Source of the DNA: Anaerolineae bacterium | Lineage (GTDB): Bacteria > Chloroflexota > Anaerolineae > Promineifilales > Promineifilaceae | Length of the DNA: 64,000 nucleotides | Assembly: GCA_020848035.1 (NCBI GenBank) | Contig: JADLAX010000007.1 | Coordinates: forward strand, 1 to 64,000 | Direction: 5' to 3' | In this document: positions 26,364-54,208 of the stretch, in pieces | Numbering within the stretch: position 1 is the stretch's first letter | Layout of the letters: every line of letters starts with the position of its first letter | The notes under the pieces: generated by a model | Database searches by the model: none | What the model saw: only the letters and a program-made list of their open reading frames with translations | Told to the model about the DNA's origin: nothing | Translations under genes and position numbers: made by a program

Positions 26364-26399
26364 GTTTCAGGATGTTGCAGAATGTTTCAAAAGGTTTCA
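26364..26399 (+). promoter_or_regulatory. Four GTTKCA half-sites at 10-bp steps
   Basis: GTTTCA (26364), GTTGCA (26374), GTTTCA (26384) and GTTTCA (26394) form a strict 10-bp tandem array just before or at the 5' end of the HNH gene. Confidence 0.75.
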
Positions 26400-26754: not shown

Positions 26755-26766
26755 GGAGGTTAGACC
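26755..26766 (+). promoter_or_regulatory. GGAGGTTAGACC leader element
   Basis: Perfect copy; the ATG follows immediately at 26767. It is fully complementary to the candidate sRNA at 32904. Confidence 0.8.
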
Positions 26767-30364: not shown

Positions 30365-31159
30365 ATGAGTGACAAAGCCCTACAACCTGTTGAGCAAAAA
30401 GTGGTGTTGTTTTATGACGATGAGCTAACCGCCGTGCGCGCCGACGGAGATGTCTACGTCAGCATCCCGCAGATGTGCGGCTCCCTCGGCCTGGACACGC
30501 AGGCCCAGCGCCGCCGCATGGAGCGGCACGAGATTATGGCGGATGGTATAGGGGTAGCCAATTTGGCTACCCCTGGCGGCCAGCAAGATACATACGTGCT
30601 GCGCGTTGACTTGATCCCCCTGTGGCTTTCGGGTGTGCGCGTGAGCGCTGTACGAGATGAGATACAGCCAAAGCTGGTCCGCTTCCAACGTGAGGCAGCC
30701 AAGGTGTTGTGGCAGGCGTTTCAGGACGGCCGTTTGACAACTGCCCCAGACATGGACATCGAGTCGCTGCTGCAGCAGGATTCACCGGCCGCTCAGGCGT
30801 ATCAGATGGCCATGGCCGTAGTGCGCATGGCTCGGCAGCAACTGTTGATGGAAGCGAAGCTGGATGAGCACGGTGCCCAGCTGGGCGAACACGCTGAGCG
30901 CCTGGACCAGCTAGAAGCGGCCGTCGGCGGGGAGCATGTGACCGAGGCGCAGGCGGCACAGATCAGCCAGGCAGTGAAGGCGGTGGCCTTGGCCATCGGG
31001 ACGAAAACCAAGCGCAACGAATTTGGGGCGGTGTATGGGGAACTGTATCGCCGCTTTAATGTGGCCAGCTATAAGGCGATTCCGCAGCGAAGGTTTGAGG
31101 CGGTGATGGACTTCCTCAATGAGTGGCTGCAAAGCCACATAGGGAATGAGCCATTTTAG
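30365..31159 (+). CDS. Antirepressor (P22 Ant N-domain plus ORF6C domain)
   Basis: 264 residues preceded by AAGGAGAGAAC. Residues ~10-120 match the P22 antirepressor N-terminal domain (VYVSIPQMCGSLGLDTQAQRRRM, LPLWLSGVRV-like motif). A coiled coil (residues ~155-190) leads to an ORF6C-type domain (YGELYRRFNVASYKAIPQRRFE). Such proteins inactivate a phage repressor during induction. No CI-like repressor is visible in the window, so its target lies elsewhere. Confidence 0.8.
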   Translation: MSDKALQPVEQKVVLFYDDELTAVRADGDVYVSIPQMCGSLGLDTQAQRRRMERHEIMADGIGVANLATPGGQQDTYVLRVDLIPLWLSGVRVSAVRDEIQPKLVRFQREAAKVLWQAFQDGRLTTAPDMDIESLLQQDSPAAQAYQMAMAVVRMARQQLLMEAKLDEHGAQLGEHAERLDQLEAAVGGEHVTEAQAAQISQAVKAVALAIGTKTKRNEFGAVYGELYRRFNVASYKAIPQRRFEAVMDFLNEWLQSHIGNEPF

Positions 31160-31633: not shown

Positions 31634-32509
31634 ATGACAACTGTAATTAGTGTGGAAAACCGAAAGGGTGGGGTAGGCAAGACAACCACGGCCGTCACGT
31701 TAGCAGTTCGCACTGCCCAAAAGATTGCACCGGAAAAGGTGCTGCTTATTTGTGTGGACCCCCAAGGCGATGCGGCTCGCGCGTTGGGGCTGGACCCGGG
31801 CGGACGCTGTTTGTCCCAGCTGCTGCGCGAAGAAGCATCATATGGTGATGTTATCATGTCGGCGGATCTGGCGGCGAACGGCGGGCCATCTCGGCCGAAT
31901 CTGTACTACTTGCCGGCATCGAATAGGCTCTTTGCTGCGCTGACCACGATTCAGGAAGATGTGGTGGCCATGCGGGAGATCGCTAACAAGATGACCCCGC
32001 AGGAACGCAAGCGAAAAGGGTTAGACGAAATTGACGACCTAACTGCCCGGGTACTCAACATCCTGCAACCACTCAAGTCAACTAAAAATGGCCCCAAGTA
32101 CATTTTTATCGACTGCCCACCATCGCTTGGGCCAATGCAAATGGCAATCCACAAATTTGCTGATTACGCGATTGTTCCTGTTGAGCCAGGCGATCAGGAC
32201 TTAGCCATGACTGTTCAGCACACGACGGAAATCGCCGAGGACTTAAAACATGGTGCCAAGATGAAGCTGTTGGCGGTTTTGCCCACCAATGTCCAGCCGC
32301 AACTTAATCTACACACCGCCATGTTAAGCCAGATACGGAAGGTTTATGAGCCGCAGCGGGCATTGGTAACATACATCCCGCGCCGGACGGCCATTCAGCA
32401 GGGGCCGTCTCTGGGTGGGCTAGTGATTTTCGATCATGAGCCAGACAGTGACGCAGCAAAAGCATACGATGTTTTGTCCGAACGGGTGTTGGCCGTAGGA
32501 GGAAGATAA
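31634..32509 (+). CDS. parA: ParA-family partition ATPase
   Basis: 291 residues from the ATG at 31634; upstream in-frame codons lie in the promoter. The deviant Walker A KGGVGKTTT is at residues ~11-19, with IFIDCPPSLGPMQ (Walker B) and VPVEPGDQDLAMTVQ further on. ParA proteins segregate low-copy plasmids with a centromere-binding partner, here the next gene two bases downstream. Its presence supports plasmid-like maintenance of the prophage. Translation starts at a GGAGGTTAGACC element and so is a predicted sRNA target. Confidence 0.9.
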   Translation: MTTVISVENRKGGVGKTTTAVTLAVRTAQKIAPEKVLLICVDPQGDAARALGLDPGGRCLSQLLREEASYGDVIMSADLAANGGPSRPNLYYLPASNRLFAALTTIQEDVVAMREIANKMTPQERKRKGLDEIDDLTARVLNILQPLKSTKNGPKYIFIDCPPSLGPMQMAIHKFADYAIVPVEPGDQDLAMTVQHTTEIAEDLKHGAKMKLLAVLPTNVQPQLNLHTAMLSQIRKVYEPQRALVTYIPRRTAIQQGPSLGGLVIFDHEPDSDAAKAYDVLSERVLAVGGR

Positions 32510-36311: not shown

Positions 36312-36574
36312 CGTGTGGCAAGGTTGTTCACCTGACGAAGGAGTCGGCAGAAGGGCATGCAGATCGCCTGGAAGCCGAGACCGGGGTGCGCCCAGAAATC
36401 TATCAATGTACGGAGTGCAATAACACGTGGCACGTGGGCCACACGGTCGCACTCAGAAAAAAACTATCAAAAAAAAGCCGCCGCATTCGGCGCGCACACC
36501 GCAATGGCGGCATGAGAAAAAGGAGCATTCATGAACGAAAGAATAGAAATGGTGCCGATTGGCCCAATCCGTAA
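36308..36574 (+). CDS. Small zinc-finger protein
   Basis: 88 residues. YQCTECNNTWHVGH carries CxxC plus His, preceded by a Cys near the start; a basic tail follows. A paralogue is at 61200. It overlaps the ParB-like gene by 44 bases. Nucleic-acid binding is likely. Confidence 0.6.
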   Translation: MTCGKVVHLTKESAEGHADRLEAETGVRPEIYQCTECNNTWHVGHTVALRKKLSKKSRRIRRAHRNGGMRKRSIHERKNRNGADWPNP

Positions 36575-38558
36575 GAACCGGGCGCAGATGCGCACGACTT
36601 ACGATTTGACCAAGCTGGCCGAGCTAACCCTGCAAATGATCCAGCGCGGCTTCGATGGTGATAAGCCACTGCTGATCCGCAAGCTTGACAAGCCAGAAGG
36701 TAGCACAGCGATGACCTACCAGTATGAGAACATCCGTGGCCACCGCCGCCGGATGGCCATGCTGATGGCCCTGGACTGCAAGGGTGGTGGCGAATGGGAG
36801 ATCGAAGCCCTGCGCACCGTCTGGAAGGATTTGGTAGTGCAGTTCGGTGGAGATGTGAGCGAGGAGGTGGTTTCGGCCGAATACGTGGAAGCCGCAGCCG
36901 AATCACTGGCAGAAGCATACCGCGATGAGCTGGTACCGGCCGTCATCTTCCAGGGTGATGAAAAGCAGGCGACGCTGAGCCTCATCTCCGACAACTTCGG
37001 CGACGAAGACCCAGACCCGCTGGGGATTGCCCACGCTCTGCAGGTAGCGGCGCAGCAGGGAATCAATGTGAATGAGGTGGCCAGCCACATGGGGCAGTCG
37101 CGCTACTTCGTTGAAAACCATCTGGCCCTGGGGCAGGTGGATGCCGATATCGCGCAGCGCATTGTGCGCAAAGAGATGAGCATGTCGGTAGCCCCGCTGC
37201 TCATGGCCCAGGCCGAAGAAGTGCGCGAAGCGCTGACCCAGTTCATTCTCATGAATCCAGCGCATCTGATTACCCTGGCCGGTATCAAGAAGCTGACAAA
37301 GCTCTTCGGCAAAGTTTCCTTTACGCTGCCCCTCAGTTTCCCCAACAGCACCCGGCGCAACGTCGCCCGGGCGTTCTGCAATCTGTGGCATGAGGTTTAC
37401 AGCGCCAATCCCGCGCGCGCCTGGTTAGGCGCAGCGGTGGTGCTGTACAACGGCGACCTCATCTACCCGTGGGATGATCCGGAGTATGCGGGGAAGTGGC
37501 TGCGTGCCCTGGGTGTTGAGTTCTCCGGGCACTGGATGGCCGCCGTTGAGCCGTATCTGCGCGAAGTGGCTTGCGCCACGTGCCCAATTGCCCAATTGCC
37601 CAAAGAGATTCTGAAGGTTGATTTGGTAGCGCCGGGGCTGCCCTGCCGCCAGGGGATTGCTACGGAAAAGTGTATGCACGGGTTGGCCGAAAGCGACCCC
37701 TTCCACGTGCGTGTGCCAATGGCATGGTCCAGCTTGAAGCCGGTTAAGCGGGAAGGCAACGTCTACTTTGTGGACAGCTTTGACGATCTGCAAGCCGCCT
37801 GGACGGCGCAGCAGAAAAAAGAGGCAAAAGAGGCCAAGGCGGAAGCCAAAGAGAAAGCGCCTGAGAAGCCGAAAAAGAAGGATGAAGCGAAAGTAACTAC
37901 GGCCGCTGCTGCGCCCACGCCTGCGCCGGAGATACAAAACAAGCCGGGCGATCCGTCGCCGATTGAGCTGATGCGTGCCCGGATTGGCATGTACATGGCC
38001 CACAGCGAGCAGGACGGCCGTAAGCACTTCATGGCTACGCCGTGCAGCACCTGCCAGCACAAATTGGCGGCCAGCCCCACGTCCGATCCGGCGGTGCCGC
38101 ACTGCGCCTGGGCCAGCCACACCCGCAGCGTGACGTTTAAGGCAATTAGCGGGGCAGGGTTTGAGCAGATGGTGGTTTGTCACCAGTATGCGCCAGACCG
38201 GCCGTGGCGGGAGATTGTGCCGGAATATCCCGCAGCGCCAGCGCTGGAGCGCGGTTGGATGGAACGGCAAATCACGATGTGGGTCAATGATCGCAAGAGC
38301 GGGGATTACAAGCCGTTCCAATGGTTGACCGGCCGCCCGATGTCTTCCGGCGAGCGCTGGGACGATTGGTTCCTGGAGCAGTTCAAAACACAGAAAGGGG
38401 AACTGTCCAGCGGGCAAATATTCACGCTTTTCTTGCTGGTCTCCGGCGAGTGGAAGCAGGCCGAACGATGGAACGGTGACAAGAAGTTTGAACTGCCCGT
38501 CGACGCGACCTTTGCCCAGATGGCCATCGTAACGGCCGAAAAATGGGGGAAAGAATAA
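36531..38558 (+). CDS. PRTRC ParB-related protein
   Basis: 675 residues from the ATG at 36531, after AAAGGAG. The N-terminus is ParB/Srx-like (PIRKNRAQMRTTYDLTKLAEL, NIRGHRRRMAMLMAL). A helical HTH region follows (EVASHMGQSRYFVENHLALG). Two Cys clusters follow: CATCP...C...C near residue 345, and CSTCQHK...C...C after a Lys/Ala/Glu linker. These may bind zinc or an iron-sulphur centre. It is the defining gene of PRTRC cassettes found on plasmids and other mobile elements. Its function in them is not established. Confidence 0.75.
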   Translation: MNERIEMVPIGPIRKNRAQMRTTYDLTKLAELTLQMIQRGFDGDKPLLIRKLDKPEGSTAMTYQYENIRGHRRRMAMLMALDCKGGGEWEIEALRTVWKDLVVQFGGDVSEEVVSAEYVEAAAESLAEAYRDELVPAVIFQGDEKQATLSLISDNFGDEDPDPLGIAHALQVAAQQGINVNEVASHMGQSRYFVENHLALGQVDADIAQRIVRKEMSMSVAPLLMAQAEEVREALTQFILMNPAHLITLAGIKKLTKLFGKVSFTLPLSFPNSTRRNVARAFCNLWHEVYSANPARAWLGAAVVLYNGDLIYPWDDPEYAGKWLRALGVEFSGHWMAAVEPYLREVACATCPIAQLPKEILKVDLVAPGLPCRQGIATEKCMHGLAESDPFHVRVPMAWSSLKPVKREGNVYFVDSFDDLQAAWTAQQKKEAKEAKAEAKEKAPEKPKKKDEAKVTTAAAAPTPAPEIQNKPGDPSPIELMRARIGMYMAHSEQDGRKHFMATPCSTCQHKLAASPTSDPAVPHCAWASHTRSVTFKAISGAGFEQMVVCHQYAPDRPWREIVPEYPAAPALERGWMERQITMWVNDRKSGDYKPFQWLTGRPMSSGERWDDWFLEQFKTQKGELSSGQIFTLFLLVSGEWKQAERWNGDKKFELPVDATFAQMAIVTAEKWGKE

Positions 38559-38875
38559 TGATTGCAATACGGGACGCTTTGGCAGACAAGAAAGTGGTGG
38601 TAACGGCCGTTATTCGGCAGGGTGATGAAAACACCCCCCGCGACAGCCGCGATGTAGTGGTCACAGTGGGAATCCCCGACGAGCGCGTGGTGATTAAGGC
38701 AGGCAAGTTTGGCCAGCTGCACCATCTGATTGATGTGGCCTGGAGCGAGTATGGTGAGATTGTGACGGCAAACCAAACGGCCGTTGCGACTACGGAGCCA
38801 GAAGAGATTGGCTCGGCCGCGCCGGAAGCCACGGTCAGCCAATCCAGCAGTTATTACAGCGACGACGATTTCTAG
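38558..38875 (+). CDS. Possible PRTRC protein E-like
   Basis: 105 residues, coupled by TAATG to the ParB-like gene. Beta strands (KVVVTAVIRQGD, RDVVVTVGIPD) then LHHLIDVAWSEYGEI and a Ser/Asp-rich end. The strand order and place before the ubiquitin-like gene suggest a diverged protein E. Low certainty. Confidence 0.4.
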   Translation: MIAIRDALADKKVVVTAVIRQGDENTPRDSRDVVVTVGIPDERVVIKAGKFGQLHHLIDVAWSEYGEIVTANQTAVATTEPEEIGSAAPEATVSQSSSYYSDDDF

Positions 38876-38885
38876 GAGGAAGATG

Positions 38886-39380
38886 ATGAGCCAAGATGAC
38901 AAAGAGTATGTCACCATTGCCGAGGCAATAGCCGACGCGAAGAAGCCCAGAGTATTTGTTTATGAAGGGCATGAGTATGAAGACCCCGGCCAGCACTTGA
39001 GCAACGAGGATGTGCGAGACATTCTAGCGCGCACCTTCGGCGCGCTGGCGGGCGGCATTATTGAGACGACTGAGCAGGATAGCCGGATTGTGGTGCACCT
39101 GAAGCCGCGGCCTGAGCGCAAGGCAGGAACGGCCGTATCTCGCCAAAAAACGTGCGGGGCCTGTGGTGGACCAGTGTGCGCCATTTGCGGTGGCTGCTTT
39201 GAGGAAGGTGAGTGCGGCTGCTACGAGCAGATGATCGACGACGCAATGTTGGCGGAGTGGGCAAGGGCTAATCGCGATGGGCTGGAAGAGTTCGCCCGGT
39301 TGTGCCGTCAGGACCTGGTCAACGATGTGCTGGTGCTGTTCGGCCGGGTGTTCCAATTGCCCGCAGCCATGATTGAATAG
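38886..39380 (+). CDS. Ubiquitin-like PRTRC protein C with a Cys-rich tail
   Basis: 164 residues from the ATG at 38886 (another ATG at 38883), after AGGAGG. Residues ~22-80 fit PRTRC protein C / Prok_Ub: RVFVYEGHEYEDPGQHLSNE, then DVRDILARTFGALAGG and IVVHLKPRPERKAG, compared with the family pattern F-x-Y-x-G-x2-L-x-D-P ... E-x-V-x2-x-Y-A. Instead of ending there, it continues into a cluster of seven Cys (C90-x2-C-x4-C-x2-C-x2-C-x5-C-x-C112), probably a zinc-binding treble clef. It would be the modifier, or a modifier fused to a zinc module, of the neighbouring E1/E2/JAB set. Confidence 0.65.
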   Translation: MSQDDKEYVTIAEAIADAKKPRVFVYEGHEYEDPGQHLSNEDVRDILARTFGALAGGIIETTEQDSRIVVHLKPRPERKAGTAVSRQKTCGACGGPVCAICGGCFEEGECGCYEQMIDDAMLAEWARANRDGLEEFARLCRQDLVNDVLVLFGRVFQLPAAMIE

Positions 39381-39414
39381 CTGAGAGGGTGGGGGTGTTT
39401 TTTTAGCCCCCACT

Positions 39415-39430
39415 GTTTCAAAAGGTTTCA
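39415..39430 (+). promoter_or_regulatory. GTTTCA tandem box
   Basis: GTTTCA at 39415 and 39425, 10 bp apart, ending 6 bases before the ATG at 39437. A GTGGGGG/CCCCCAC hairpin with a T-rich loop lies just upstream. Confidence 0.7.
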
Positions 39431-39436
39431 GCGACC

Positions 39437-39697
39437 ATGCAAGCAATCATAGATTACTTACTAGAAATTCTGAACGACGACGATGAAGTGCCATACATTG
39501 ATGTGGATGACGTTTTCAACTTTCTGAACGACTTGATTGGCAACCAGCTGGATGCAGCACATATTGTAGACAGGGTAGGGCTTTATGAGGTGGAGCTAAA
39601 CAGCGTAGCGTGGGAAGGACGCGCTGCCAGCGAACTGCTAACCAGGCTGCTTATTACGCCAGCTGTACCGCTGAAAGGGTATGTGGTGGGGCTATGA
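39437..39697 (+). CDS. Small acidic protein in the PRTRC cassette
   Basis: 86 residues, helical and acidic (LLEILNDDDEVPYIDVDDVF). Overlaps the next gene (ATGA). Unknown. Confidence 0.5.
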   Translation: MQAIIDYLLEILNDDDEVPYIDVDDVFNFLNDLIGNQLDAAHIVDRVGLYEVELNSVAWEGRAASELLTRLLITPAVPLKGYVVGL

Positions 39698-40590
39698 AAA
39701 CCAAAAAACTTGACCCACGAGACCTGGCCCGCTGTGCCCTCACCAGCCTACGGCTAGCACGAATCCATCAGAATTTCTTCAGCGATGCGCTGCCTGATCT
39801 GAAATGGAAGCCCGTCGATGAAAAAAGCACCGCAAAGGCGGCTTCCAAGATACTTGGACACGTGGGCACTCTGTTTCCTCTTTGGGAAATGTGGGATGAC
39901 GATTACGCAATGGCCGAGGATTTTTCACAGTATATCCCTATCACCGTATTTGGCGTCGACGATGAATATATTTCAGACATGATGGGTAGCCATATATGGC
40001 ATGACCTGGAGGCATATCTATTTGCCTTTGATGGCGGGTTTGGGGGAGGGGAAGAAGAAGAGGCCGGCGAAGAACTCGCTTGCCAGTTTGATATTCGCCA
40101 GCCAGCGCCCATCTGGAAGATTTTCCTCAAGCTGGAAATGATGCTCATCGAAGGTGATGAGCGGCTCCAGCAGTACAGGGTGCAATGGCGCAACATGGCG
40201 CGACGCTTCCGCTATTTGACGGCCAATACGGAGCACCAGTTTCTCGATCGAGACATCGAAACGCAGAGTTACTCTGGTCAGATACCCTGGGAAAAGGAAT
40301 GGATTGATGCCCTGACAGAGCAATGGGCAGAAGCGGAGCCATACCTGGATTCCACATGGGCATTTGTAAATTGGGTGATAGAAAGCCCAGGTAACTTCGA
40401 CCTGGCAATTGCCGTGGTGCGCCTGGTGTGTGACGAAGTGGCTGCTGACGAGCAGATGGCCAATGTCAGCTTGAATGAAGTACACACTGAAGATCACAAA
40501 GACCTCCTGACAATTCAGCAACGTTTGAACGCAATGGAATGGGACGAAAATGACAAACCAGAAAACGAAAAAGAAACCGAAGCTAGTTAG
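39694..40590 (+). CDS. PRTRC-cassette protein of unknown function
   Basis: 298 residues from the ATG at 39694. Helical, acidic, with a Gly/Glu-rich stretch (GGFGGGEEEEAGEE) near the middle and many Trp. By position it could take the place of PRTRC protein F, but I see no diagnostic motif. It overlaps the E2-like gene by 41 bases. Confidence 0.5.
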   Translation: MKTKKLDPRDLARCALTSLRLARIHQNFFSDALPDLKWKPVDEKSTAKAASKILGHVGTLFPLWEMWDDDYAMAEDFSQYIPITVFGVDDEYISDMMGSHIWHDLEAYLFAFDGGFGGGEEEEAGEELACQFDIRQPAPIWKIFLKLEMMLIEGDERLQQYRVQWRNMARRFRYLTANTEHQFLDRDIETQSYSGQIPWEKEWIDALTEQWAEAEPYLDSTWAFVNWVIESPGNFDLAIAVVRLVCDEVAADEQMANVSLNEVHTEDHKDLLTIQQRLNAMEWDENDKPENEKETEAS

Positions 40591-41209
40591 AGGAAAATGG
40601 GCGGCGCGCATCTCTCTCTACCGGGATCACGCATATGTGGAGATGGATCACCCGGAAGGCTTGCTCGAAAAGCAGGTCGCGCTTGATAGCCTGGGTCCGG
40701 TGTTCGCCAATGTCCCCGTGGGGACGGGGCTGCTGCCGCGCAACATTCTGTTTTATGAAAAGCAGAACGGGGAACAGCGCATCGGCATCTACATTGAACC
40801 TGATCGATACACCTTCCGCACGCCAGATCGGGAATACAAGCTGCCTATGCCGGGCTTTGTGTTTGTGGGCCAGGCGCAGCGTTACAGCCTATATGCCGTG
40901 GCTGAGACGGATTGGCCGGGGCAGCGCACCAGGCTGTACTGGCCGCCCATGACCAACATTCAGGATGGTGGGTCTATGTGCACCGGAACGGTGAAGGTGC
41001 CCAGCTGCGCACCGGACACCATTTGGGACGCCTGGGCTGCGCTGATGGGCGCGTATTTCACGCCTCATGCCATTGAGCATCGCAGCAAAAGCCACAAATC
41101 AGTCATTGAGTTCTGGGAGTTCCTGGAAGCGGTGGACGCTTTTCCCTATGACGAGCTAGTGCCGATGGACAAGCCGCGCACGCTGGAAGAGCTGCTCAGA
41201 GGAGTCTAA
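40550..41209 (+). CDS. E2-like PRTRC protein B
   Basis: 219 residues. LLPRNILFYEK, GIYIEPDRYTFR and the GGSMCTGTVKVP motif with Cys144 match PRTRC protein B / prokaryotic E2 family D, in which this Cys is the candidate thioester site. FTPHAIEH is the conserved later motif. It lies next to E1-like, JAB and ubiquitin-like genes. The conjugating activity is a prediction of the family, not shown here. Confidence 0.7.
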   Translation: MTNQKTKKKPKLVRGKWAARISLYRDHAYVEMDHPEGLLEKQVALDSLGPVFANVPVGTGLLPRNILFYEKQNGEQRIGIYIEPDRYTFRTPDREYKLPMPGFVFVGQAQRYSLYAVAETDWPGQRTRLYWPPMTNIQDGGSMCTGTVKVPSCAPDTIWDAWAALMGAYFTPHAIEHRSKSHKSVIEFWEFLEAVDAFPYDELVPMDKPRTLEELLRGV

Positions 41210-41211
41210 CA

Positions 41212-41814
41212 ATGCTCAGTATTCACAACTTACTCCAACACTACATCTACGATGGCACCCTGCCAGAACCAAACCCGCCAGGGTATCAGTACATCATGGC
41301 GGGCAATGGCATCTTCATCCAGGCAGATAGCCCACTGCGACGCGTGGTTGTGCAAATCGCCCGAAAGCAAATTAAAGGGCTGCCAGCGCTTCAGCAGCAG
41401 ATCAGGTTGAAGCACCCCCGGCTAAACGGCCGTACGCTGCCGGTGATCATCGAACACGCCAGACAGCGCCTGGACATCGAGGTGGTTTACCACGTGACAG
41501 CTGACATGCGGATTCGCGCCATCGCCACGGGCACCAAGGCGTCTGTTGAGTTTGAGAATGTGCCTGATGAAGGGGTTATCCTGGAGGCTCATTCGCATAA
41601 CACAATGCCTGCAGGATTTTCCTCAGTAGACAACAAGTATGAACAGCGGTTTCGATTCTATATGGTGGTGGGCAATCTGCACGACCGTCCGCAGGTGGCC
41701 TTCCGGCTGGGGGTGTATGGGTATCACATCCCGCTACCGCTATCGGTTTTGTTTGACTTTAGCAACGTAAACATTGAATGGGACGAGGTGGGTCATGCTC
41801 AAGATAGATATTGA
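41212..41814 (+). CDS. JAB/JAMM PRTRC protein A
   Basis: 200 residues from the ATG at 41212. Glu125, then H127-S-H129, seven residues, S137-x2-D140: the full JAMM metalloprotease motif (HxH-x7-S-x2-D). JAB proteases of this class remove or mature ubiquitin-like tags. It overlaps the E1-like gene by 20 bases. Confidence 0.8.
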   Translation: MLSIHNLLQHYIYDGTLPEPNPPGYQYIMAGNGIFIQADSPLRRVVVQIARKQIKGLPALQQQIRLKHPRLNGRTLPVIIEHARQRLDIEVVYHVTADMRIRAIATGTKASVEFENVPDEGVILEAHSHNTMPAGFSSVDNKYEQRFRFYMVVGNLHDRPQVAFRLGVYGYHIPLPLSVLFDFSNVNIEWDEVGHAQDRY

Positions 41815-42721
41815 AAAACGATATCGGGTGATGGTTCCCGATTTTCAATTTGTGCAGCTTGTGGTTGCCGGGGTGGGGGGAACTGGCTCAGCCGTAGCCA
41901 TCGATCTGGCACGCCTGGCATATCACTGCCAGGAGAATGGACTACCGGTGATGATGCAGCTGGTTGACGGCGACAAGGTGGAACCAAAAAATGTCGGACG
42001 CCAGCAGTTCTCGATGTACGAGGTCGGTGAAAACAAGGCGACGTCCATGGCGCGGCGGCTGAACCTCTGGCTTGGGCTGGATATAACGGGCACCCCCAAG
42101 ATGCTAACAGAAAAAACGAAACTCATCTTCAACGACGGCCGTATGAAGCCGCTGCGAATCATTGTGGGTGCAGTAGACAACCATAAGGCGCGCCGGGCCA
42201 TTGCCAAACATGCGCAGAAATCTGGCGCATGGTGGGTGGATGCGGGCAACGGCGAATTCAAGGGCCAGGTTCTACTCGGCAATTATCCGCAGGGTGGGAT
42301 TGAGGTAGCCGAGGACCTGGCCCTGATGAACGGGTTACCCGCTCCAGACAAACAGATGCCGGAGCTGCTTGAAGAAGAGGACAAACCAACGCTGGAGTTC
42401 GAGGATTGTGCCTTACGCATCTTACGCGATGAGCAGAGCATCAACATCAATCGGTTGATGGCCACGTATGCGGCGCAGGTGGTTTACGACCTGATCATCA
42501 AGCGGGAGTTGGATTACATGGCGATTCATACCAGCTTCCGGCCGCCCAGCACAACGGCCGTGCCTGTCACCCGCCGCACGCTTGAGCGGTATGGCGAAGT
42601 GAAGGAAGTGCCCGCAAAGTACGACCCCAAGGACATGGACCCAGAGGAGTTTGACGACGAAGAGGATTTTGAACAGTGGTTGCTGGACATGGAAATGGAA
42701 GGCGAGGAGGAGCTGCCGTAA
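41795..42721 (+). CDS. E1/ThiF-like PRTRC protein
   Basis: 308 residues from the ATG at 41795, with GAGGTGGG upstream. The Rossmann motif AGVGGTGSA is at residues ~25-33. LVDGDKVEPKNVGRQQF has the adenylating Asp and the N-x2-RQ motif of ThiF/E1 enzymes. A Cys in FEDCALRIL is a candidate active site. It should adenylate the C-terminus of a ubiquitin-like partner. The end is very acidic. TAATG couples the next gene. Confidence 0.8.
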   Translation: MLKIDIEKRYRVMVPDFQFVQLVVAGVGGTGSAVAIDLARLAYHCQENGLPVMMQLVDGDKVEPKNVGRQQFSMYEVGENKATSMARRLNLWLGLDITGTPKMLTEKTKLIFNDGRMKPLRIIVGAVDNHKARRAIAKHAQKSGAWWVDAGNGEFKGQVLLGNYPQGGIEVAEDLALMNGLPAPDKQMPELLEEEDKPTLEFEDCALRILRDEQSININRLMATYAAQVVYDLIIKRELDYMAIHTSFRPPSTTAVPVTRRTLERYGEVKEVPAKYDPKDMDPEEFDDEEDFEQWLLDMEMEGEEELP

Positions 42722-43116
42722 TGTTTCAAATGGATGAATCAGCTATTCAAATTCCACAAGAAAGTGGTGCAGACGTGTGGCAAAACGGCCGTACGGGCGA
42801 GATGGCCAACTTTGCCGTATTCAAGGTTTATCACACTCAGGACGGTTCTGGCCGCATTCATTACCAAATGGAGCGGGAGGGCGTGGCAATTGCCCCAAAC
42901 CCTTTCACTGGCCGGGTAGAAAAGTACACCTTTATTTTGTCGCCACCGATGGGCAGCCGACCGAAGTCTGCCAAACCTGCGGGGGATATGCCCAATTTTG
43001 GTCCGAAGCCGCAGTATGCTTTCTGGGAGGATTGGGGAGTCATCTTGGGCTTTGTGGGTGGCCTCCTGTTTTGGGTCGCGACTATTTACTGGCTGTGGAG
43101 GCTGGTATGTCGATAG
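42721..43116 (+). CDS. C-terminally anchored membrane protein
   Basis: 131 residues; soluble beta-rich part, then one strong membrane helix near the end (WGVILGFVGGLLFWVATIYW). Coupled to the E1-like gene by TAATG. It could tether the cassette to the membrane. Unknown. Confidence 0.55.
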   Translation: MFQMDESAIQIPQESGADVWQNGRTGEMANFAVFKVYHTQDGSGRIHYQMEREGVAIAPNPFTGRVEKYTFILSPPMGSRPKSAKPAGDMPNFGPKPQYAFWEDWGVILGFVGGLLFWVATIYWLWRLVCR

Positions 43117-43688
43117 AGTTGGGTCGCTACCGGTTGATCGTCCTGGATCTGGCTTCTGTTTTGCATCGAGACAACGGCCATTTTCACCTGATGCCCTCCG
43201 CGCAAGAGTGGCTGGCACAGCAGCCAATGCGCGCTCCGGATCAGACGCCGTTCATTGCAGTGGTTGAATACCTGCCCATTGCCGTGGGATCCAGGTACAC
43301 GCCGCTTGCATCCAGACTGACACGCCGGTTGCCCATCGATGGAGCCAGGTCGCTGCTCGGCCGGTGGCCGGACCCGGCTGTGCTGCGCCTGTGCCAACGT
43401 CTTTATGGCAACGGCCCCAGCCTGCTTCTGGGCAACTCTCAACTTCATTTTGTGGCGGCCCAGTCAGTTGGCTTTGATTTCTGTTTTGTTCAGGCACTCT
43501 TTTCACCGAGCAAGCAGGTGCAGGCAGGCGACCCCACGGCACGATGGTGCCCGCGCTGTGGGCCGAAGTCTCTGTTAGTGGTCGGTGGTCAAAACGAAGA
43601 CAAGTTGACCTGCTCATCTTGTGGCTACCGTACCGATGCGCCTGAGTCCATCAAATTGTTGAATAGCGGCGCTGCACGGTTGCTATGA
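43107..43688 (+). CDS. Zinc-ribbon hypothetical protein
   Basis: 193 residues from the ATG at 43107; the longer frame upstream overlaps the previous gene and is rejected. The C-terminus has a zinc ribbon: CPRCG...CSSCGYRTD. The N-terminus (YRLIVLDLASVLHRDNG) is HAD-like at most. Function unknown. Confidence 0.55.
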   Translation: MSIELGRYRLIVLDLASVLHRDNGHFHLMPSAQEWLAQQPMRAPDQTPFIAVVEYLPIAVGSRYTPLASRLTRRLPIDGARSLLGRWPDPAVLRLCQRLYGNGPSLLLGNSQLHFVAAQSVGFDFCFVQALFSPSKQVQAGDPTARWCPRCGPKSLLVVGGQNEDKLTCSSCGYRTDAPESIKLLNSGAARLL

Positions 43689-43733: not shown

Positions 43734-44672
43734 ATGCATATAGAGAAAACCCGTTTGTGTGGTGAATCGGCAATGGCCAATTATGATTGGCCGTTACTGC
43801 GGCGATTGTGGGAAGAGGCGACCAGTAAGCCGCGCCCCAGCTGGTACTTGCCGGAGCTGGTGACCATGTGCTTTGTGGACCAGTGCGACGAGGAAGTGTC
43901 GGCCAAGTTGGCCGCAGCGCTGGGGATGGCTCAATTGGCAATCAAGTTAATCGACGACTTGCTTGATGCTGAGCCAGGTGGGGTACAGGAACAGGCCAGC
44001 GCTGGGGAGGTGGCCAACATTGCCTGTGCCTTTCAGGCTTTTTCTTCCGACCTGGCGCTTACGTCGTTTCATCCAAATACACCTTTTGGTAAGCCTGCTG
44101 CAGCTATCATTGCCCGGCTACTGCATGAGACGGCCTTTGGCCAAAAGCTAGACTCATCTGAGGCGTTTACAGAGGAAGAATATTGGGTGACCGTGCAGTG
44201 GAAATCTACGCCATTCTACAGGCACGCTTTTGCCTTGGGCGCGCTGCTGGCGCGGCATCATGGGGCCACTGTCGATGTGCAGTTGATTCGGTCACTGGGG
44301 ACGATTTTTGGCGAGATGGTGCAGGTGATTGACGACATGGTGGATGTAATGGCTACACCGGCGACCGGCGATTGGCATCGCAGCAACAATCTACTCATTC
44401 TGTTTGCAGAATTGACCGATGAGCACGGCCGTTTCGCAGAGCTAAAAACGGCAGTTCAGGGCGGTGCCGACCCCGAAACAGCCCAGCAGTATTTAATCGA
44501 CTGTGGGGCAGTGACTTACTGTGAGCACGTTGTGAAGGGGAAGTATGAAAGGGCGATGGAGCTTCTGGCTATTTTGAAGATTGAAGATAGTCCGTTGCGG
44601 AAATTATTTGACAGCCACTTGAGCGCCGTCTTAGTACCAACCAAAGGGCCAGACAGCATTCGCCTCGTTTAA
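43734..44672 (+). CDS. Polyprenyl synthase, ComQ-like
   Basis: 312 residues from the ATG at 43734 after GGGAGAGG. The all-helical isoprenoid synthase fold has both aspartate-rich motifs: IDDLLDAEPG (D74, D75, D78) and VIDDMVDVM (D200, D201, D204). In ComQXPA systems such a protein prenylates a Trp of the ComX peptide. Here a candidate peptide gene overlaps its 3' end on the other strand, and a kinase and regulator follow. A housekeeping prenyl-chain role is less likely in a phage. Confidence 0.75.
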   Translation: MHIEKTRLCGESAMANYDWPLLRRLWEEATSKPRPSWYLPELVTMCFVDQCDEEVSAKLAAALGMAQLAIKLIDDLLDAEPGGVQEQASAGEVANIACAFQAFSSDLALTSFHPNTPFGKPAAAIIARLLHETAFGQKLDSSEAFTEEEYWVTVQWKSTPFYRHAFALGALLARHHGATVDVQLIRSLGTIFGEMVQVIDDMVDVMATPATGDWHRSNNLLILFAELTDEHGRFAELKTAVQGGADPETAQQYLIDCGAVTYCEHVVKGKYERAMELLAILKIEDSPLRKLFDSHLSAVLVPTKGPDSIRLV

Positions 44673-44804: not shown

Positions 44805-47114
44805 ATGATGCTGCATTATAGCATAAGACGCCTTTTAATTGCCTTAGTCCTTTTGTCTTTTGTGGTTGCCGCCTATTTTTCGGCGCGCTACATCATTACG
44901 CCAGCGGTTATGATGACCGCCACGGACAAGGGGTTGGTGATTTACGATCAGCCCGAGTGTGATGTGTGCAGCCTTGAAATAGGCGATATCGTGGTGGCAA
45001 TTGAGGGGGTAGAATATGAGCCGGGTGTTTTTCTGGCTCCATTTGCGGGCTTTACAAATGGTGACGTGGTGAACATGTCGGTGCTGCGGGGCGGGGAGCG
45101 GGTGGAGGCGCAGCTGCGCATCCCTGCGTCTGACGGGTCTGAGGTGTTTGTAAAGCTGCTGGTCTTTGTATTCTGGATGCCGTTTTGGCTGAGCGCTGCC
45201 TGGCTGGCGTATTTTGCGCCGTTGGACAAGCGGGCCATTACGATGGCGGCTATGTTTTCGGTGTATGCCGTCTGGGTGGTGGCCGGGCTGGTGTCGTCGG
45301 CGTTTGTGTCGGCCGCTTCGGTAGTAGTGCACGTGGCTACCTGGATGCTGGTGCCACTGACGGTACAGGTGCATTGGGTATCGCCCAGCCCACTGCACTG
45401 GCGGGTGCCTCGATGGACGGCCGTGGGTTTCTACGGGGTGTTTGCTGTGCTGGTAGTAGCGGAGCTGTTTCAGATGGTGCCTCGCCAGCTGTTCAGCATT
45501 GGCACGGTTTTGATGGTGCTGGCTCCATTTGTGCTGCTGCCACTACACCGGGATAAGGCGCGCCTGAACGCACGCCGCATGATGTTGATGGGGGTGGTTA
45601 CATTGACGGTGCCCCTGGTTGCCTGGCTGCTGATTTCTTTCAATACAGAAACCAGCAGCAGCGCCTCGTCGGTAAATCTGATGCTGGTGGGGGGGTCGGC
45701 GCTGCTGGCGCTGCCGGTGTTTCCGCTGCTTTACGTATATGCCAATTACCGCCAGTATTTTTCGGCCAAAATGGAGCAGCGGTCATGGCGGGTGTTGGTG
45801 TTGTTGGTTTATATCTCCCTAATTCTGGTGGCGATTACAGCGGCAATCACCGTGGCCGGGCGGTCGCTGTCTATAAACGATCAGGCGATCAACTTGAGCC
45901 TGATTACCTCGACGATTATTGGGGTGGCCGTGGCGCTGGGAACAAACAGTGCGCAGAGCTGGATGAAGCGCTTTACCTACGGCGATTTTGAATCGCGCAT
46001 TAACCTGGCTTCGGTTCGTTTTTCGACGCAGATGACGGAGCTGACGGCTCCGGGCGACTTGGAAGCATTTCTGGCAGCCGAAACGCATGCCCAGCTGGGC
46101 GTGACAGCCTCGGCGCTGTACCTGGCCAGCCCAGAGCTGGTGTTGAAATATGTGGTGGGCGCGGCAGAGGGCGCGACAAAAGCCCCAGAGACGATCAGTC
46201 CTAATAACGACATTGTGGCGGGGTTGGGGAAGTATCGGCCGTATGTGGCGGGCAGCAGCCTGCCCTGGGCCAGGCTGTGCGTTCCTCTGTTGGTAGAGAA
46301 AGACCTGGTGGGGGTATGGTTATTGGGGCCACGGGAGAACGATGATTTTTATGCAGCCGGGCACATCCAGCAGCTGCAAGCGCTGGGCAACCAGGTAGCA
46401 GCGGTGGTGGAAATGCGGCGGCAGCAGCGCGAGATTGAGCGGCAGGTGGCCACGTTACTGGTGAAGGAAAAGGAGGCGGCGTTGGGGCGGGTAGTCACCT
46501 CTGTGGCCCACCAGTTCCGCAATCCGCTGCAAGTTATTATGGGGGCGCTGGAAGCGGACAATGATTACCAAAAGCCGGAAAACGAGTGGCTGGCATTGGC
46601 CTACCAGCGGGCGGAGCGGCTGTCTGACGTAGTTCGTTCTATTCAACGGTTTGCCACGATTAATGACCCAGGAAACGAAGCGGCGCAGCGGATTGATGTG
46701 CAGGAGGCGGTTAAAGAGGCGATGCTGCTCATTGAGCACCGGTTGAAAGAACAGGGGATTACGCTAGCTCTGGAAGATGGCGAACCGTGTTTTGTGATGA
46801 TGGGGGCGTCTGAGCTGACGCAGGCAGTTCTGAACTTGTTGGAGAATGCCAGCGACGCACAAGAAGGGGGCTGCATCCATATTGAGGTGAGCCAACGCAA
46901 TGGCACTGTTGTGCTGCGGGTGCGCGATGAGGGAGCGGGGATTGCTGACGGTGACATTGAGCGGGTATTTGAGCCGTTGTTCACGACAAAAAACGGGCTC
47001 GGTTTGGGATTGTGGATTACGCGTAGTATTATTGAACGAAATCGCGGGACAATAAGCGCCCAGAGTGCTTTGGGGAAAGGTTCTATTTTTACAATAACAC
47101 TCCCAGCAGTGTAA
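44805..47114 (+). CDS. Membrane histidine kinase, ComP-like
   Basis: 769 residues. Signal-anchor helix, then an outer PDZ-like loop (residues ~40-105, LEIGDIVVAIEGVEYEPG), then eight or so membrane helices to residue ~390. A GAF-like region (residues ~395-540) leads to HisKA (VAHQFRNPLQV, phospho-His569) and HATPase_c (NLLENASDA, RDEGAGIADG, NGLGLGLWI). The sensor half matches the layout of Bacillus ComP (PDZ-like loop plus multiple helices), although the kinase core is HisKA rather than HisKA_3. Only GGA precedes the ATGATG start. Confidence 0.75.
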   Translation: MMLHYSIRRLLIALVLLSFVVAAYFSARYIITPAVMMTATDKGLVIYDQPECDVCSLEIGDIVVAIEGVEYEPGVFLAPFAGFTNGDVVNMSVLRGGERVEAQLRIPASDGSEVFVKLLVFVFWMPFWLSAAWLAYFAPLDKRAITMAAMFSVYAVWVVAGLVSSAFVSAASVVVHVATWMLVPLTVQVHWVSPSPLHWRVPRWTAVGFYGVFAVLVVAELFQMVPRQLFSIGTVLMVLAPFVLLPLHRDKARLNARRMMLMGVVTLTVPLVAWLLISFNTETSSSASSVNLMLVGGSALLALPVFPLLYVYANYRQYFSAKMEQRSWRVLVLLVYISLILVAITAAITVAGRSLSINDQAINLSLITSTIIGVAVALGTNSAQSWMKRFTYGDFESRINLASVRFSTQMTELTAPGDLEAFLAAETHAQLGVTASALYLASPELVLKYVVGAAEGATKAPETISPNNDIVAGLGKYRPYVAGSSLPWARLCVPLLVEKDLVGVWLLGPRENDDFYAAGHIQQLQALGNQVAAVVEMRRQQREIERQVATLLVKEKEAALGRVVTSVAHQFRNPLQVIMGALEADNDYQKPENEWLALAYQRAERLSDVVRSIQRFATINDPGNEAAQRIDVQEAVKEAMLLIEHRLKEQGITLALEDGEPCFVMMGASELTQAVLNLLENASDAQEGGCIHIEVSQRNGTVVLRVRDEGAGIADGDIERVFEPLFTTKNGLGLGLWITRSIIERNRGTISAQSALGKGSIFTITLPAV

Positions 47115-48261: not shown

Positions 48262-49473
48262 ATGGCAGCAGCGGTCAAGAGTTCGGCAGAAACAACCTGG
48301 AGAGCGACCCTCAGCGAGCTTGAGTTGCAGATGACGAAGGCCACATTTAACACGTGGCTGAAAGATGCGGTGTTTTTGCGGGTCGAAAAGGGCGTCTACG
48401 TGATTGGCGTACGGAACAGCCATGCAGTTGACTGGCTCACAAATCGGCTGGGGGACACGATCCGGCGCACATTGGCAGCGATTGCTGATACGGCCGTTGA
48501 TGTGCGTTTTGTGGTGGTGGACGTAGTTGAGAGTGAGCTGGCCCAGGACGACGAGGGTGAAGATGGGGAACGGCCGTTTTACTCGCGGCCTGACATCAAC
48601 GCCCAATGGTATGCTGTGCTAAAGGCGTATGCGGAAGCCCAAGACAGTTTGCAGCCATCATCCTGCCTGAAGCTGCTGAATAAATTGGATTTTTTGATTG
48701 ACGGTACAAACCTCAAGATTTTTTCTTCTGACCCCAAAGCTATTGAAAATTTGAATAGAATCGCCAACTGGCTGGAGGCCCTGCAAGCGCAGTTTCGTGT
48801 GGCGGGCCTGCTGGTGGATGTGTCATTGCACCAGGAGCCGAGCAGTAATGGCCGTGCCAATGGGCAAGCTAGCCAGGCTAGCCAGAAGCAGCAAACCAAG
48901 CGCAAGGGCAGCGATGACGGGGATGGACCGGTGCAGTATAGGAACATTCGGCCCCCAACGGATCCGCTGGGGTCTTTTGTGAAAACCAGCCATTATGCCA
49001 TTCGGTTCTGGCGGCCGTACCTGGGGCCAGATGTGTTTGATTTGCTGCAAATCATTAGCAGTTATGCTTATGAATTTGAGGTGTTACGCAAGGATGGGCC
49101 AACCCTGACAGCCCTCATTAACAAGATGGGGCGGGGGAAGGACACCAGGAAGCTCACCGGCAGAACAGGCAGCGGCAAGGGCGATAGCTACCGCGAGGGG
49201 TCTTATGGTTGGCTGAACGAGCTGCGGGATCATCGGCTGTGCGACTATTGGCAAGATGGGTACGGCCGTTGGGCTAAGAATTATTTCGACCACTTGACCA
49301 AAGTGAGCGACCTCCCACTACTAACCCCCAAACAGGTAGCACGATTATCCCCTGAAGACCAGGCAGAACACGAGGAATGGCTCCGGCTGCATACGGCCGT
49401 TGATTACGACGAATGGAGCCAGGACGGGCGTGAATCACGCATTCCAGAATTGCCTTTGCGAGAACACCCCTAA
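48262..49473 (+). CDS. Replication initiator with a DnaA_N domain
   Basis: 403 residues with GAGGAT upstream. Residues ~10-90 fit DnaA domain I (TWRATLSELELQMTKATFNT, VRNSHAVDWLTNRLGDTI). A flexible linker leads to a C-terminal half with many aromatic residues (SHYAIRFWRPYLGPDVFDLL) and an RTGSGKGDSYREGSYGW loop. There is no AAA+ domain, so it is not DnaA; the N-terminal domain could recruit host DnaB or DnaA partners. Iterons begin 23 bases after the stop codon. I take it as the plasmid-type initiator. Confidence 0.7.
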   Translation: MAAAVKSSAETTWRATLSELELQMTKATFNTWLKDAVFLRVEKGVYVIGVRNSHAVDWLTNRLGDTIRRTLAAIADTAVDVRFVVVDVVESELAQDDEGEDGERPFYSRPDINAQWYAVLKAYAEAQDSLQPSSCLKLLNKLDFLIDGTNLKIFSSDPKAIENLNRIANWLEALQAQFRVAGLLVDVSLHQEPSSNGRANGQASQASQKQQTKRKGSDDGDGPVQYRNIRPPTDPLGSFVKTSHYAIRFWRPYLGPDVFDLLQIISSYAYEFEVLRKDGPTLTALINKMGRGKDTRKLTGRTGSGKGDSYREGSYGWLNELRDHRLCDYWQDGYGRWAKNYFDHLTKVSDLPLLTPKQVARLSPEDQAEHEEWLRLHTAVDYDEWSQDGRESRIPELPLREHP

Positions 49474-49495
49474 TCACTATACGATAATCTATCCC

Positions 49496-49644
49496 GGCGG
49501 AGCGCCAGGATAGAAGTGTTCTATGGTGGCGGAGCGCCGGGATAGAGGTTGATTTCTATGGTGGCGGAGCGCCAGGATAGAAATTCTAAGTAGGCGGAGC
49601 GCCAGGATAGAGGGGGGTTTAAGTAGGCGGAACGCCAGGATATA
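49496..49644 (+). repeat. Five iterons (origin region)
   Basis: GGCGGAGCGCCAGGATAGA at 49496, 49528 (one change), 49563, 49593 and 49626 (three changes). Start-to-start distances are 32, 35, 30 and 33 bp, close to three helical turns. Each copy contains GGCG-GAG-CGCC. Confidence 0.85.
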
Positions 49645-53068: not shown

Positions 53069-54208
53069 ATGAAATTTAGTACGAATCGCGAATCCCTGAT
53101 TGATGTTTTGAAGAAGTTACGGCCGTTTGTGTCCACGCGCAGCCTGCTGCCTGTTTTGCAGAATGTGCGGGTGGAAGCATTTGAAGACGGCCGGGTGAAT
53201 CTGACGGTCACCAACCTGGAAGTGATAGGGGCCGCAATGGCTGGTGCAACGGTGGACGCACCTGGGGCCACCACGCTGCCTTACACGCTCCTGGTGAGCG
53301 TGCTGGGCGAAATGATGGGGGAGCAGGTGTCGTTTTCGCCTGACGAGGGTGAGCGCACCCTGATCCAGTCTGATTTGTCTGAAAGCTCTCTGGCGGGCCT
53401 TCCCGCAGCGGAGTTCCCCAAGACGGATTTCGTGATTACCGACGCTTCATTTTCCTTCCCTGTGACGGCGGCATGGCTGAAGCAGCGCTTCAACCAGGTT
53501 CTGTTTAGTGCGGCCGGTGACGATACGCGACCGGTTCTGTGTACGGTGCTGTTCCGGGTGGTTGGTGGCAAGTTAACAATGGCGGCTACCGATGGATTCC
53601 GCCTTACGCTGATTGATGCCCCAGAAGCCTTTGGTGAAACGGCCGTTCCCAACTTTGAAGTGATCTTCCCCGCAGCGCAAATGGCGGGAATCTTGCAGAT
53701 GCTCGAAGGCGATGTAACGGTAACCGTTAACTGCAAGCGGGTGAAGTTTGAGACGGCGACGGCCACGGCCGTGCTGCAAGTGCCTGACTATGACTACCCT
53801 GATTTCAGCCCCATCATTCCAACGCGTGTGCTGACCATGTTTACTTTGGAGCGTGCGCGGGCCATCAGTGCGGCGCGGTTGGCGATGGTGATTGCTCATC
53901 ACAACGACGGTCCCGAGGCGATCACGCTGGAGCATGAGCCGGTGGATGGGGAGGCGGGGTGGTTGGCCATGTCTTCGGTGATTGCGTCGGTGGGGGCAAA
54001 CGAGGCCCGCGCCACGCTCATTTCGGCTGAGGGCAACCAGTTTTCAACGATGGGGGTGAATGGGGGGTATCTGCTGGATGCGCTAACTCATGCGCCTGAT
54101 GGTGATATCCAAATCCGTACCACCAATCCGGTAGAGCCAATTGTTATTCGGTCGGTTAATGATGCGACGTGGCAGTGCATCATTATGCCGCTCCATTTGA
54201 AACGTTAG
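53069..54208 (+). CDS. dnaN: DNA polymerase III beta subunit (sliding clamp)
   Basis: 379 residues, the normal length. Start MKFSTNRESLIDVLKKLRPF; middle LCTVLFRVVGGKLTMAATDG; end WQCIIMPLHLKR, all clamp hallmarks. It should encircle DNA and raise the processivity of a polymerase encoded by the host or outside the window. GGAGG precedes the ATG, and a very strong terminator follows. Confidence 0.9.
   Translation: MKFSTNRESLIDVLKKLRPFVSTRSLLPVLQNVRVEAFEDGRVNLTVTNLEVIGAAMAGATVDAPGATTLPYTLLVSVLGEMMGEQVSFSPDEGERTLIQSDLSESSLAGLPAAEFPKTDFVITDASFSFPVTAAWLKQRFNQVLFSAAGDDTRPVLCTVLFRVVGGKLTMAATDGFRLTLIDAPEAFGETAVPNFEVIFPAAQMAGILQMLEGDVTVTVNCKRVKFETATATAVLQVPDYDYPDFSPIIPTRVLTMFTLERARAISAARLAMVIAHHNDGPEAITLEHEPVDGEAGWLAMSSVIASVGANEARATLISAEGNQFSTMGVNGGYLLDALTHAPDGDIQIRTTNPVEPIVIRSVNDATWQCIIMPLHLKR

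Follow-up and report, generated by a model that had tools for sequence, protein, structure and literature searches.

The stretch analysed here (the window; 64,000 nucleotides) comprises positions 1–64,000 of contig JADLAX010000007.1 (C7; 101,576 bp), about two-thirds of a replicon, in the 7.65-Mb, 104-contig assembly of an Anaerolineae bacterium. At 36,531–42,721 it carries a cassette of eight plus-strand genes, with ends that overlap or lie close together, encoding in order a ParB-family protein (ParB), a small protein at the E position of PRTRC cassettes, a ubiquitin-like (Ub-like) protein, a further small protein, a protein at the PRTRC F position, an E2-like protein (E2), a JAB/JAMM metallopeptidase (JAB), and a ThiF/E1-like adenylating enzyme (ThiF; Table 1). 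We class the cassette as divergent, both PRTRC-like and type 6d-like; its carrier is a phage-plasmid, and it is one of many in phages. Operon type 6d was predicted in 2006 by Iyer, Burroughs and Aravind (PMC1779556).

Cassette genes and their conservation

The original prediction, made from the DNA letters, had named this locus a PRTRC cassette inside a phage genome, and the ParB, Ub-like, E2, JAB, and ThiF genes lie in the order and at the coordinates it had given. The family name stands in part: the order ParB-E-C-F-B-A-ThiF, taking E and F by position, matches PRTRC cassettes, and ThiF exceeds the cut-off of its NCBIfam model. Below their NCBIfam cut-offs fall ParB (23.5 bits against TIGR03734, cut-off 278.6), the Ub-like protein (18.9 bits against the PRTRC C model, cut-off 45.95), E2 (69.8 bits against the PRTRC B model, cut-off 131.45), and JAB (Table 1; 20.7 bits against Prok-JAB, also below cut-off), and the E- and F-position proteins have no NCBIfam match. 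Given that only ThiF lies above a PRTRC cut-off, we regard the cassette as a divergent PRTRC-like variant, in which E2, JAB, the Ub-like protein, and ParB are PRTRC homologues below the equivalog level.

In the 675-residue cassette ParB, family matches extend no further than about residue 250; its relatives occur in all three other cassettes of the assembly, on contigs C72, C101, and C102 (E 1e-125 or better). The E-position protein was rejected as a true PRTRC E, since its hhalign comparison to proteobacterial E was not significant, and is assigned by position alone. An iterated hidden Markov model (HMM) places the F-position protein in a family with members in 10 of the 33 cassette clusters (described below), and hhalign gave a Prob of 90 over 68 columns to cyanobacterial and Chlorohelix F-position proteins, against 0.1 to proteobacterial F. 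Two genes that follow ThiF are of unsure membership; in the second, the weak match is to IBR, a half-RING, making its zinc-ribbon-like product a possible candidate for a ligase part.

Table 1. Coordinates of the cassette genes and of other features on the replicon (ORF, open reading frame)
Feature	Position	Strand	Evidence or remark
ParB-family protein, 675 aa, first gene of cassette	36531–38558	+	HTH_ParB 30.3 bits, cut-off 22.6
Small protein at PRTRC E position	38558–38875	+	Position; relatives on C101, C72, and C102, E 2e-11 to 1e-10
Ub-like protein	38883–39380	+	Prok_Ub E 3.6e-4, below cut-off
Tandem GTTKCA operator-like site within cassette	39415–39430	+	22 bp upstream of small gene
Small 86-aa protein between Ub-like and F genes	39437–39697	+	ORF; no family match in profile scans
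F-position protein, 298 aa	39694–40590	+	
E2-like protein	40550–41209	+	Prok-E2_D 78.9 bits, cut-off 25 (Pfam E 5e-22)
JAB/JAMM metallopeptidase	41212–41814	+	TIGR03735 (PRTRC_A) E 8e-14, 51.6 bits, below cut-off 101.8
ThiF/E1-like adenylating enzyme	41795–42721	+	TIGR03736 (PRTRC_ThiF) 147 bits, above cut-off 144.75
Small protein, hydrophobic C-terminal stretch, membership unsure	42721–43116	+	Start overlaps ThiF stop; no family match
Zinc-ribbon-like protein, membership unsure	43107–43688	+	Weak IBR, 20.1 bits, cut-off 24.3
ParA	31634–32509	+	phrog_164 E 3e-36; 4 kb upstream of cassette ParB
DnaA_N-domain protein, likely replication initiator	48262–49473	+	PF11638 E 3.3e-9; phrog_26369 E 4.6e-7
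Five 28-nt iteron-like repeats, candidate origin	49487–49644	+	Repeat family D2, inverted pair I2
Sliding-clamp-like DNA polymerase processivity factor	53069–54208	+	phrog_947 E 3.3e-48
Second ParB	C7 79808–80806		
Large terminase	C7		phrog_675, E 1.4e-93
Tape measure protein	C7		E 2.4e-60
Lysin with SLT and M23 domains	C7		

The catalytic residues named at the outset (Cys144 in E2; His127, His129, Ser137, and Asp140 in JAB) are present and invariant in alignments. Cys144 is invariant in 13 of 13 aligned E2 sequences, as are Pro133 and Asn136, and P101, P133, N136, and C144 are invariant in 30/30 diverse sequences. In JAB, E90 accompanies the four named residues as invariant (11/11), and Cys205 of ThiF is invariant in 14 of 14 (numbered from a start taken at 41795; the longest ORF begins at 41774). 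The catalytic columns of further copies, viral ones included, were read by HMM alignment of hits with E below 1e-6. Across bacterial genomes, the E2 Cys was kept in all 33 rows, the JAMM H/H/S/D in all 32, and the ThiF motif was complete in 35 of 49, the other 14 being gapped at these columns (10) or substituted away from Cys (4). The loci of the host family, which are short and partly cut, had a complete motif in 5/8 (ThiF), 15/15 (E2), and 10/13 (JAMM H/H/S/D).

The Ub-like protein has a beta-grasp domain (~residues 21–80), Lys-Ala-Gly at 80–82, and then a Cys-rich C-terminal extension. In its structure model, block means of the predicted local distance difference test (pLDDT) were 86–94 over residues 21–80, with a whole-model mean of 69.7 and a low-confidence extension. 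Fold comparison gave protein L (Z 4.6), the parkin ubiquitin-like domain (Z 4.2), and a MoaD-type protein (Z 3.8), where a Z under 8 may reflect a common arrangement only. The E2 model has a pLDDT of 86. Foldseek against the PDB returned no significant match for the Ub-like or E2 model, and a sequence profile search found no solved structure like either protein at E below 0.4.

The ThiF proteins of the C72, C101, and C102 cassettes are 33–37% identical to that of the window, and the three cassettes share ~76–91% DNA identity among themselves, block by block. The cassette genes are under purifying selection. Among these three cassettes, the ratio of nonsynonymous to synonymous substitution rates (dN/dS) was 0.13–0.15 for ParB, 0.10–0.14 for Ub, 0.10–0.13 for E2, 0.22–0.25 for JAB, 0.11–0.20 for ThiF, 0.19–0.25 for F, and 0.40–0.68 for E; five phage contigs compared to the Burkholderia phage BgVeeders33 gave 0.04–0.30 for E2, JAB, and ThiF. 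Truncated extra JAB/ThiF copies lie beside the intact cassettes at C102 15855–17194 and C72 52348–53378. Prok-E2_D was present in 11 of 52 host-family genomes, the source genome included. In four other genomes of the family, phages related in the large terminase (48–53% identity) showed no E2 on the same contig, these contigs being possibly partial, and the cassette thus looks accessory.

The phage-plasmid carrier and relatives in other viruses

C7 is a phage-plasmid, circular and combining phage packaging genes with partition and replication genes. The initial 127 bp of the contig are repeated exactly at its far end, the usual sign of a circle, so that C7 closes into a replicon of 101,449 bp. 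Pfam and PHROGs profile scans recognised minor tail proteins on C7, in addition to the terminase, tape measure, and lysis genes, and the placement inside a phage genome is borne out; neither a portal nor a major capsid protein had a Pfam or PHROGs match in the proteins tried. Further genes encode a tyrosine integrase, a DNA methylase, and a 1690-aa DarB-like antirestriction protein. The genes for ParA, the DnaA_N-domain protein, and the clamp, together with the iteron-like repeats that come directly after the DnaA_N-domain gene, all lie within 12 kb of the cassette, and the linkage of ParA, the second ParB, and the DnaA_N protein to it is consistent with a phage-plasmid. To judge from the style of its proteins and from its relatives, the host is probably a Chloroflexota bacterium.

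The phage setting recurs beyond this window, in several unrelated bacterial viruses. A tblastn search of ThiF against INPHARED yielded three records: the Burkholderia phage BgVeeders33 (cassette E-C-F-B-A-ThiF, with annotated terminase, capsid, and tail genes), the Bacillus phage KLEB27-3 (a four-repeat Ub-like protein, E2, JAB, and ThiF), and the metagenomic MT835919 (E2, JAB, and ThiF). A DNA search among phages found no cassette relative, nor did a single-protein scan of IMG/VR; three alignment-based scans of IMG/VR gave 68 loci, 38 of them cassette relatives (L025–L062), with Ub, E2, JAB, and ThiF all present by HMM in 31. These 38, whose virus status is IMG/VR's own call, are not independent, as 18 are near BgVeeders33 (ThiF 78–96%), four have an identical ThiF, and two are seemingly one virus. 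Terminase models scored above cut-off in 2 of 38 records (GpA) and 10 of 30 (Terminase_6N), 11 of them distinct. The 30 weak IMG/VR hits (L063–L092), of which 29 lack a conserved Arg, are other ThiF families and were used as controls.

Loss of catalytic residues in relatives, which the original prediction had singled out as counter-evidence, was not found in any virus copy scored. On the 38 IMG/VR contigs, the ThiF motif was complete in 38/38, the E2 Pro/Asn/Cys/Gly in 35/35 scored, and the JAMM H/H/S/D in 34/34 scored (one with Thr between the two His, one without a readable Glu); in the INPHARED records, all three motifs were complete (3/3 each). A ThiF tree (97 rows, quick method) held eight changes between virus and cell or plasmid, at least six by well-supported branches, indicating that cassettes switched carriers several times, with the caveat that some "cell" rows may be prophages. 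The window itself was placed without support, among long branches.

Among 59 Ub-like hits, the window not included, 58 hold Lys-Gly, the exception being cut by the end of its locus. Fourteen end exactly at Lys-Gly, eight have up to 8 extra residues, and 36 have a longer tail. In other viruses the Ub-like unit occurs in head-to-tail repeats, each ending in Lys-Gly (four in KLEB27-3, six in L055–L058, two in L059 and L060), which implies the need for a processing peptidase. Contigs with such repeats (2–6 units; L017 and L055–L060) are of the jumbo-phage type. The Lys-Gly ends and their tails would fit maturation by the JAB gene product.

Several repeats were noted on the replicon. The iterated palindrome AACGGCCGTT occurs in 59 copies on C7 (38 in the window) and in 3,823 across the 7.65-Mb assembly, versus 7 for a reversed control; being equally dense on both, it ties phage and host together. 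As a ParB site or centromere it was rejected, since it is iterated genome-wide. Its iteration resembles that of HIP1 in cyanobacteria. A repeat as long as ~180 bp is scattered between genes, at 2377, 33135, and 50870 in the window, at C7 77497, 81685, and 92730, and at C72 62173, this last a single copy near the C72 cassette; as a site for the PRTRC ParB it was discarded, being on C7 and C72 and absent from C101 and C102 despite the same ParB. Tandem GTTKCA sites, 10 bp apart and near gene starts, number 11 in the window against 0.07 expected (including 2631, 26364–26399, 32978, 34867, 35964, 39415, and 47891) and are probably operators of a phage regulator. A conserved leader, GGAGGTTAGACCAA, stands 12–18 bp upstream of start codons at 16 places on C7 (in the window at 26755, 31621, 34449, 34885, 49749, 51185, 52296, and 54269), preceding ParA, the second ParB, and the DarB-like gene among others. 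A P22_AR_N antirepressor-type gene is found near the window cassette (30365–31159), with relatives near the C72, C101, and C102 cassettes. Phage-borne histidine-kinase-like proteins and a polyprenyl-synthase-like protein are encoded at 606–1703, 44805–47114, and 43734–44672.

Proposed function and its rivals

We tentatively favour, as a possibility somewhat short of an even chance, the reading that the cassette is a working, self-contained, and reversible Ub-like conjugation system, whose likeliest substrates are proteins acting on the element's DNA. It builds on what was observed of the genes, their order, their catalytic residues, selection, and recurrence in phages. JAB would cut the Ub-like protein at Lys-(Ala)-Gly and so remove its C-terminal extension; ThiF would adenylate the trimmed end and hand it, probably via Cys205, to Cys144 of E2; and E2, with no recognised E3 to help it, would attach the tag to lysines of particular target proteins. 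The F protein and ParB may guide E2, in which case ParB would keep the machinery on the element's own DNA, and JAB could also remove the tag. The substrates, the weakest part of the proposal, would be replication or recombination proteins, the element's own or the host's, and the tag would tune one or the other process, either early in infection or while the element exists as a plasmid. After trypsin digestion, the lysine remnant of a Lys-Gly end is predicted to be just one Gly, which is easily confused with alkylation, and that of this phage to be Ala-Gly; with such short remnants, routine proteomics could miss conjugates.

The original prediction had suggested a maintenance or an anti-defence role. 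The choice of substrates made here draws on neighbouring genes, which lean towards DNA replication and recombination, a link that is suggestive only and comes mostly from one Clostridia lineage. The survey covered 98 loci, up to ~10 kb per side (26–64 kb for the window), and kept the 58 with ThiF and E2 among greedily called ORFs, dropping 40, including the reference plasmid L021; at 70% ThiF identity these formed 33 clusters, 16 of which include a virus locus. A DUF6094 methylase was a neighbour in 8 clusters, Rad52 in 7, an SMC/Rad50-like protein in 7, and a clamp in 5, each with 0/30 in control virus loci. Nine loci (L018, L129, L135, L140, L146, L150, L151, L153, and L161) have a 4-nt overlap between a clamp gene and the stop codon of ThiF. 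Fetched loci of five clusters, four of them with virus loci, contain a ParB. In whole-record tests on 22 of 41 cassette-bearing virus loci (near-copies and BgVeeders33 omitted), DnaN TIGR00663 was present in 3/22 versus 0/29 controls, the distance from clamp to cassette being ~5 kb or less in each of the three.

Several results weigh against this proposal. One ThiF clade (Bacillota plus two virus loci) holds every Rad52 and SMC cluster (seven) and all but one of the five clamp clusters, bringing the association close to a single lineage, and no clamp was found near the Burkholderia phage cassettes in the neighbour survey. The model phrog_947 was present in the same 3/22 cassette records versus 8/29 controls, albeit with weaker and partial matches in the latter. 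A general clamp association, favoured by TIGR00663 and the neighbour counts, is contradicted by these controls and was rejected. Of the 33 clusters, 28 lack a ParB, and where its relatives have K-G the Ub-like protein of the window has K-A-G. The structural link of E2 is weak (UFC1, Z 2.7; Cap2, Z 2.6 over 90 residues), and unrelated structures that match another part of the model rank higher, with Z up to 3.3.

The nearest alternative, which we consider possible though rather unlikely, is anti-defence, in which host defence proteins would be tagged and inactivated early in infection or establishment. The DarB-like antirestriction protein and the DNA methylase of the same phage speak for it, as do the DUF6094 methylase-helicases and the DarB-like proteins, the latter found in 5/33 clusters; large mobile elements, however, commonly carry genes of the antirestriction and methylase type. 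The reading has no known defence target to point to, and it would leave a dedicated deconjugase and a ParB unexplained.

A bolder form of the favoured proposal holds that several unrelated tailed phages carry complete Ub-like conjugation/deconjugation systems that modify the replication or recombination machinery, such as the clamp (its gene overlaps that of E1 in Clostridia elements), with ParB as the recruiter to phage DNA in the phage-plasmid form. We think this doubtful; if true, clamp modification in phages would be the bacterial-virus counterpart of eukaryotic clamp modification. The question of function becomes one for phage genetics, since small Burkholderia phages have intact copies under selection, as does a Bacillus phage of which an isolate has been sequenced.

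Defence between phages, or superinfection exclusion in the manner of Bil or the CBASS Cap2/Cap3 pair, would have incoming virion or replication proteins tagged. The Ub-like, E1, E2, and JAB parts are the enzyme set of Bil, ThiF matches the PADLOC E1-E2 models (best 6.5e-9), and the same bacterial assembly houses three more cassettes. Set against this, ThiF alone of the ten genes scanned had a PADLOC match, E1 and E2 have a gene each, unlike Cap2, the match to BilD was just 1.1e-3, and the cassette is also found in jumbo phages; we judge this reading quite unlikely. Decidedly unlikely, in our view, is a plasmid-style partition or copy control, with ParB as a true centromere binder regulated by the tagging parts. 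ParB is the first gene of the operon, with a ParA nearby, and for Pseudomonas plasmids PMC7466150 gives the PRTRC ParB the annotation of a partition system, but C7 already has ParA and another ParB, the clusters mostly lack one as noted above, and family matches cover only the first part of the cassette ParB. A sulfur carrier without conjugation, with ThiF and the Ub-like protein paired as in the ThiS/MoaD pathways, is highly improbable: sulfur-carrier ThiF relatives have the next-best scores, but virus copies retain the cysteine of E2 and the residues of JAMM, and no sulfur-transfer gene was among the genes scanned. A tail-module role of the lambda gene I/K type is excluded by the position of the cassette and its separate E1 and E2.

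Comparison with known systems

Phage lambda pairs a Ub-like protein with a JAB in tail genes I and K, as described in the pertinent part of PMC1779556, and the same pairing is seen here; the lambda genes sit in the tail module without E1 or E2, whereas the window cassette lies outside it. With CBASS Cap2/Cap3 the cassette shares the E1/E2/JAB logic, and its E2 model aligns to Cap2 at the Z given above. The window encodes E1 and E2 on separate genes, and beyond E1 no CBASS match was found among the ten genes scanned. Bil (BilABCD) likewise has Ub-like, E2, JAB, and E1 parts, and among solved structures the window JAB profile matches BilC best (E 0.012). BilA has two Ub-like domains and the window protein one, and BilD had no clear match.

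The type 6d operon, as set out in the relevant passages of PMC1779556, comprises a Ub-like protein with a conserved Gly, a JAB, separate E1 and E2, and a further protein, and in this resembles the window. The separate E2 with its conserved Cys has its equivalent in the Prok-E2_D protein and Cys144. The type 6d His downstream of the E2 Cys is less clear, in that the window E2 has His residues, yet the 13-sequence alignment has no invariant His column. For the C-terminal Gly, the window has a Gly in K-A-G with an extension after it. The N-terminal Arg/Trp signature of the type 6d JAB is incomplete, since the JAB of the window and those of C101, C102, and C72 all lack the Trp there. For type 6d, those passages list bacteria, without mention of phages there.

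A literature search found no report of PRTRC-type cassettes as phage components, which is no proof of absence, and no tested function for PRTRC systems. The PRTRC cassettes of plasmids (NCBIfam TIGR03734–TIGR03738 and relatives) have homologous E2, JAB, ThiF, and Ub-like parts, and the order in that of Paraburkholderia PPGU16_p2 equals the order in the window, save for the extra small gene that the window has between C and F. Unlike plasmid PRTRC systems, the window version has a Cys-rich extension on its Ub-like protein and a tailed phage as its carrier. The gene set has so far been described on plasmids; the window has a divergent version in a little-noticed carrier, a phage.

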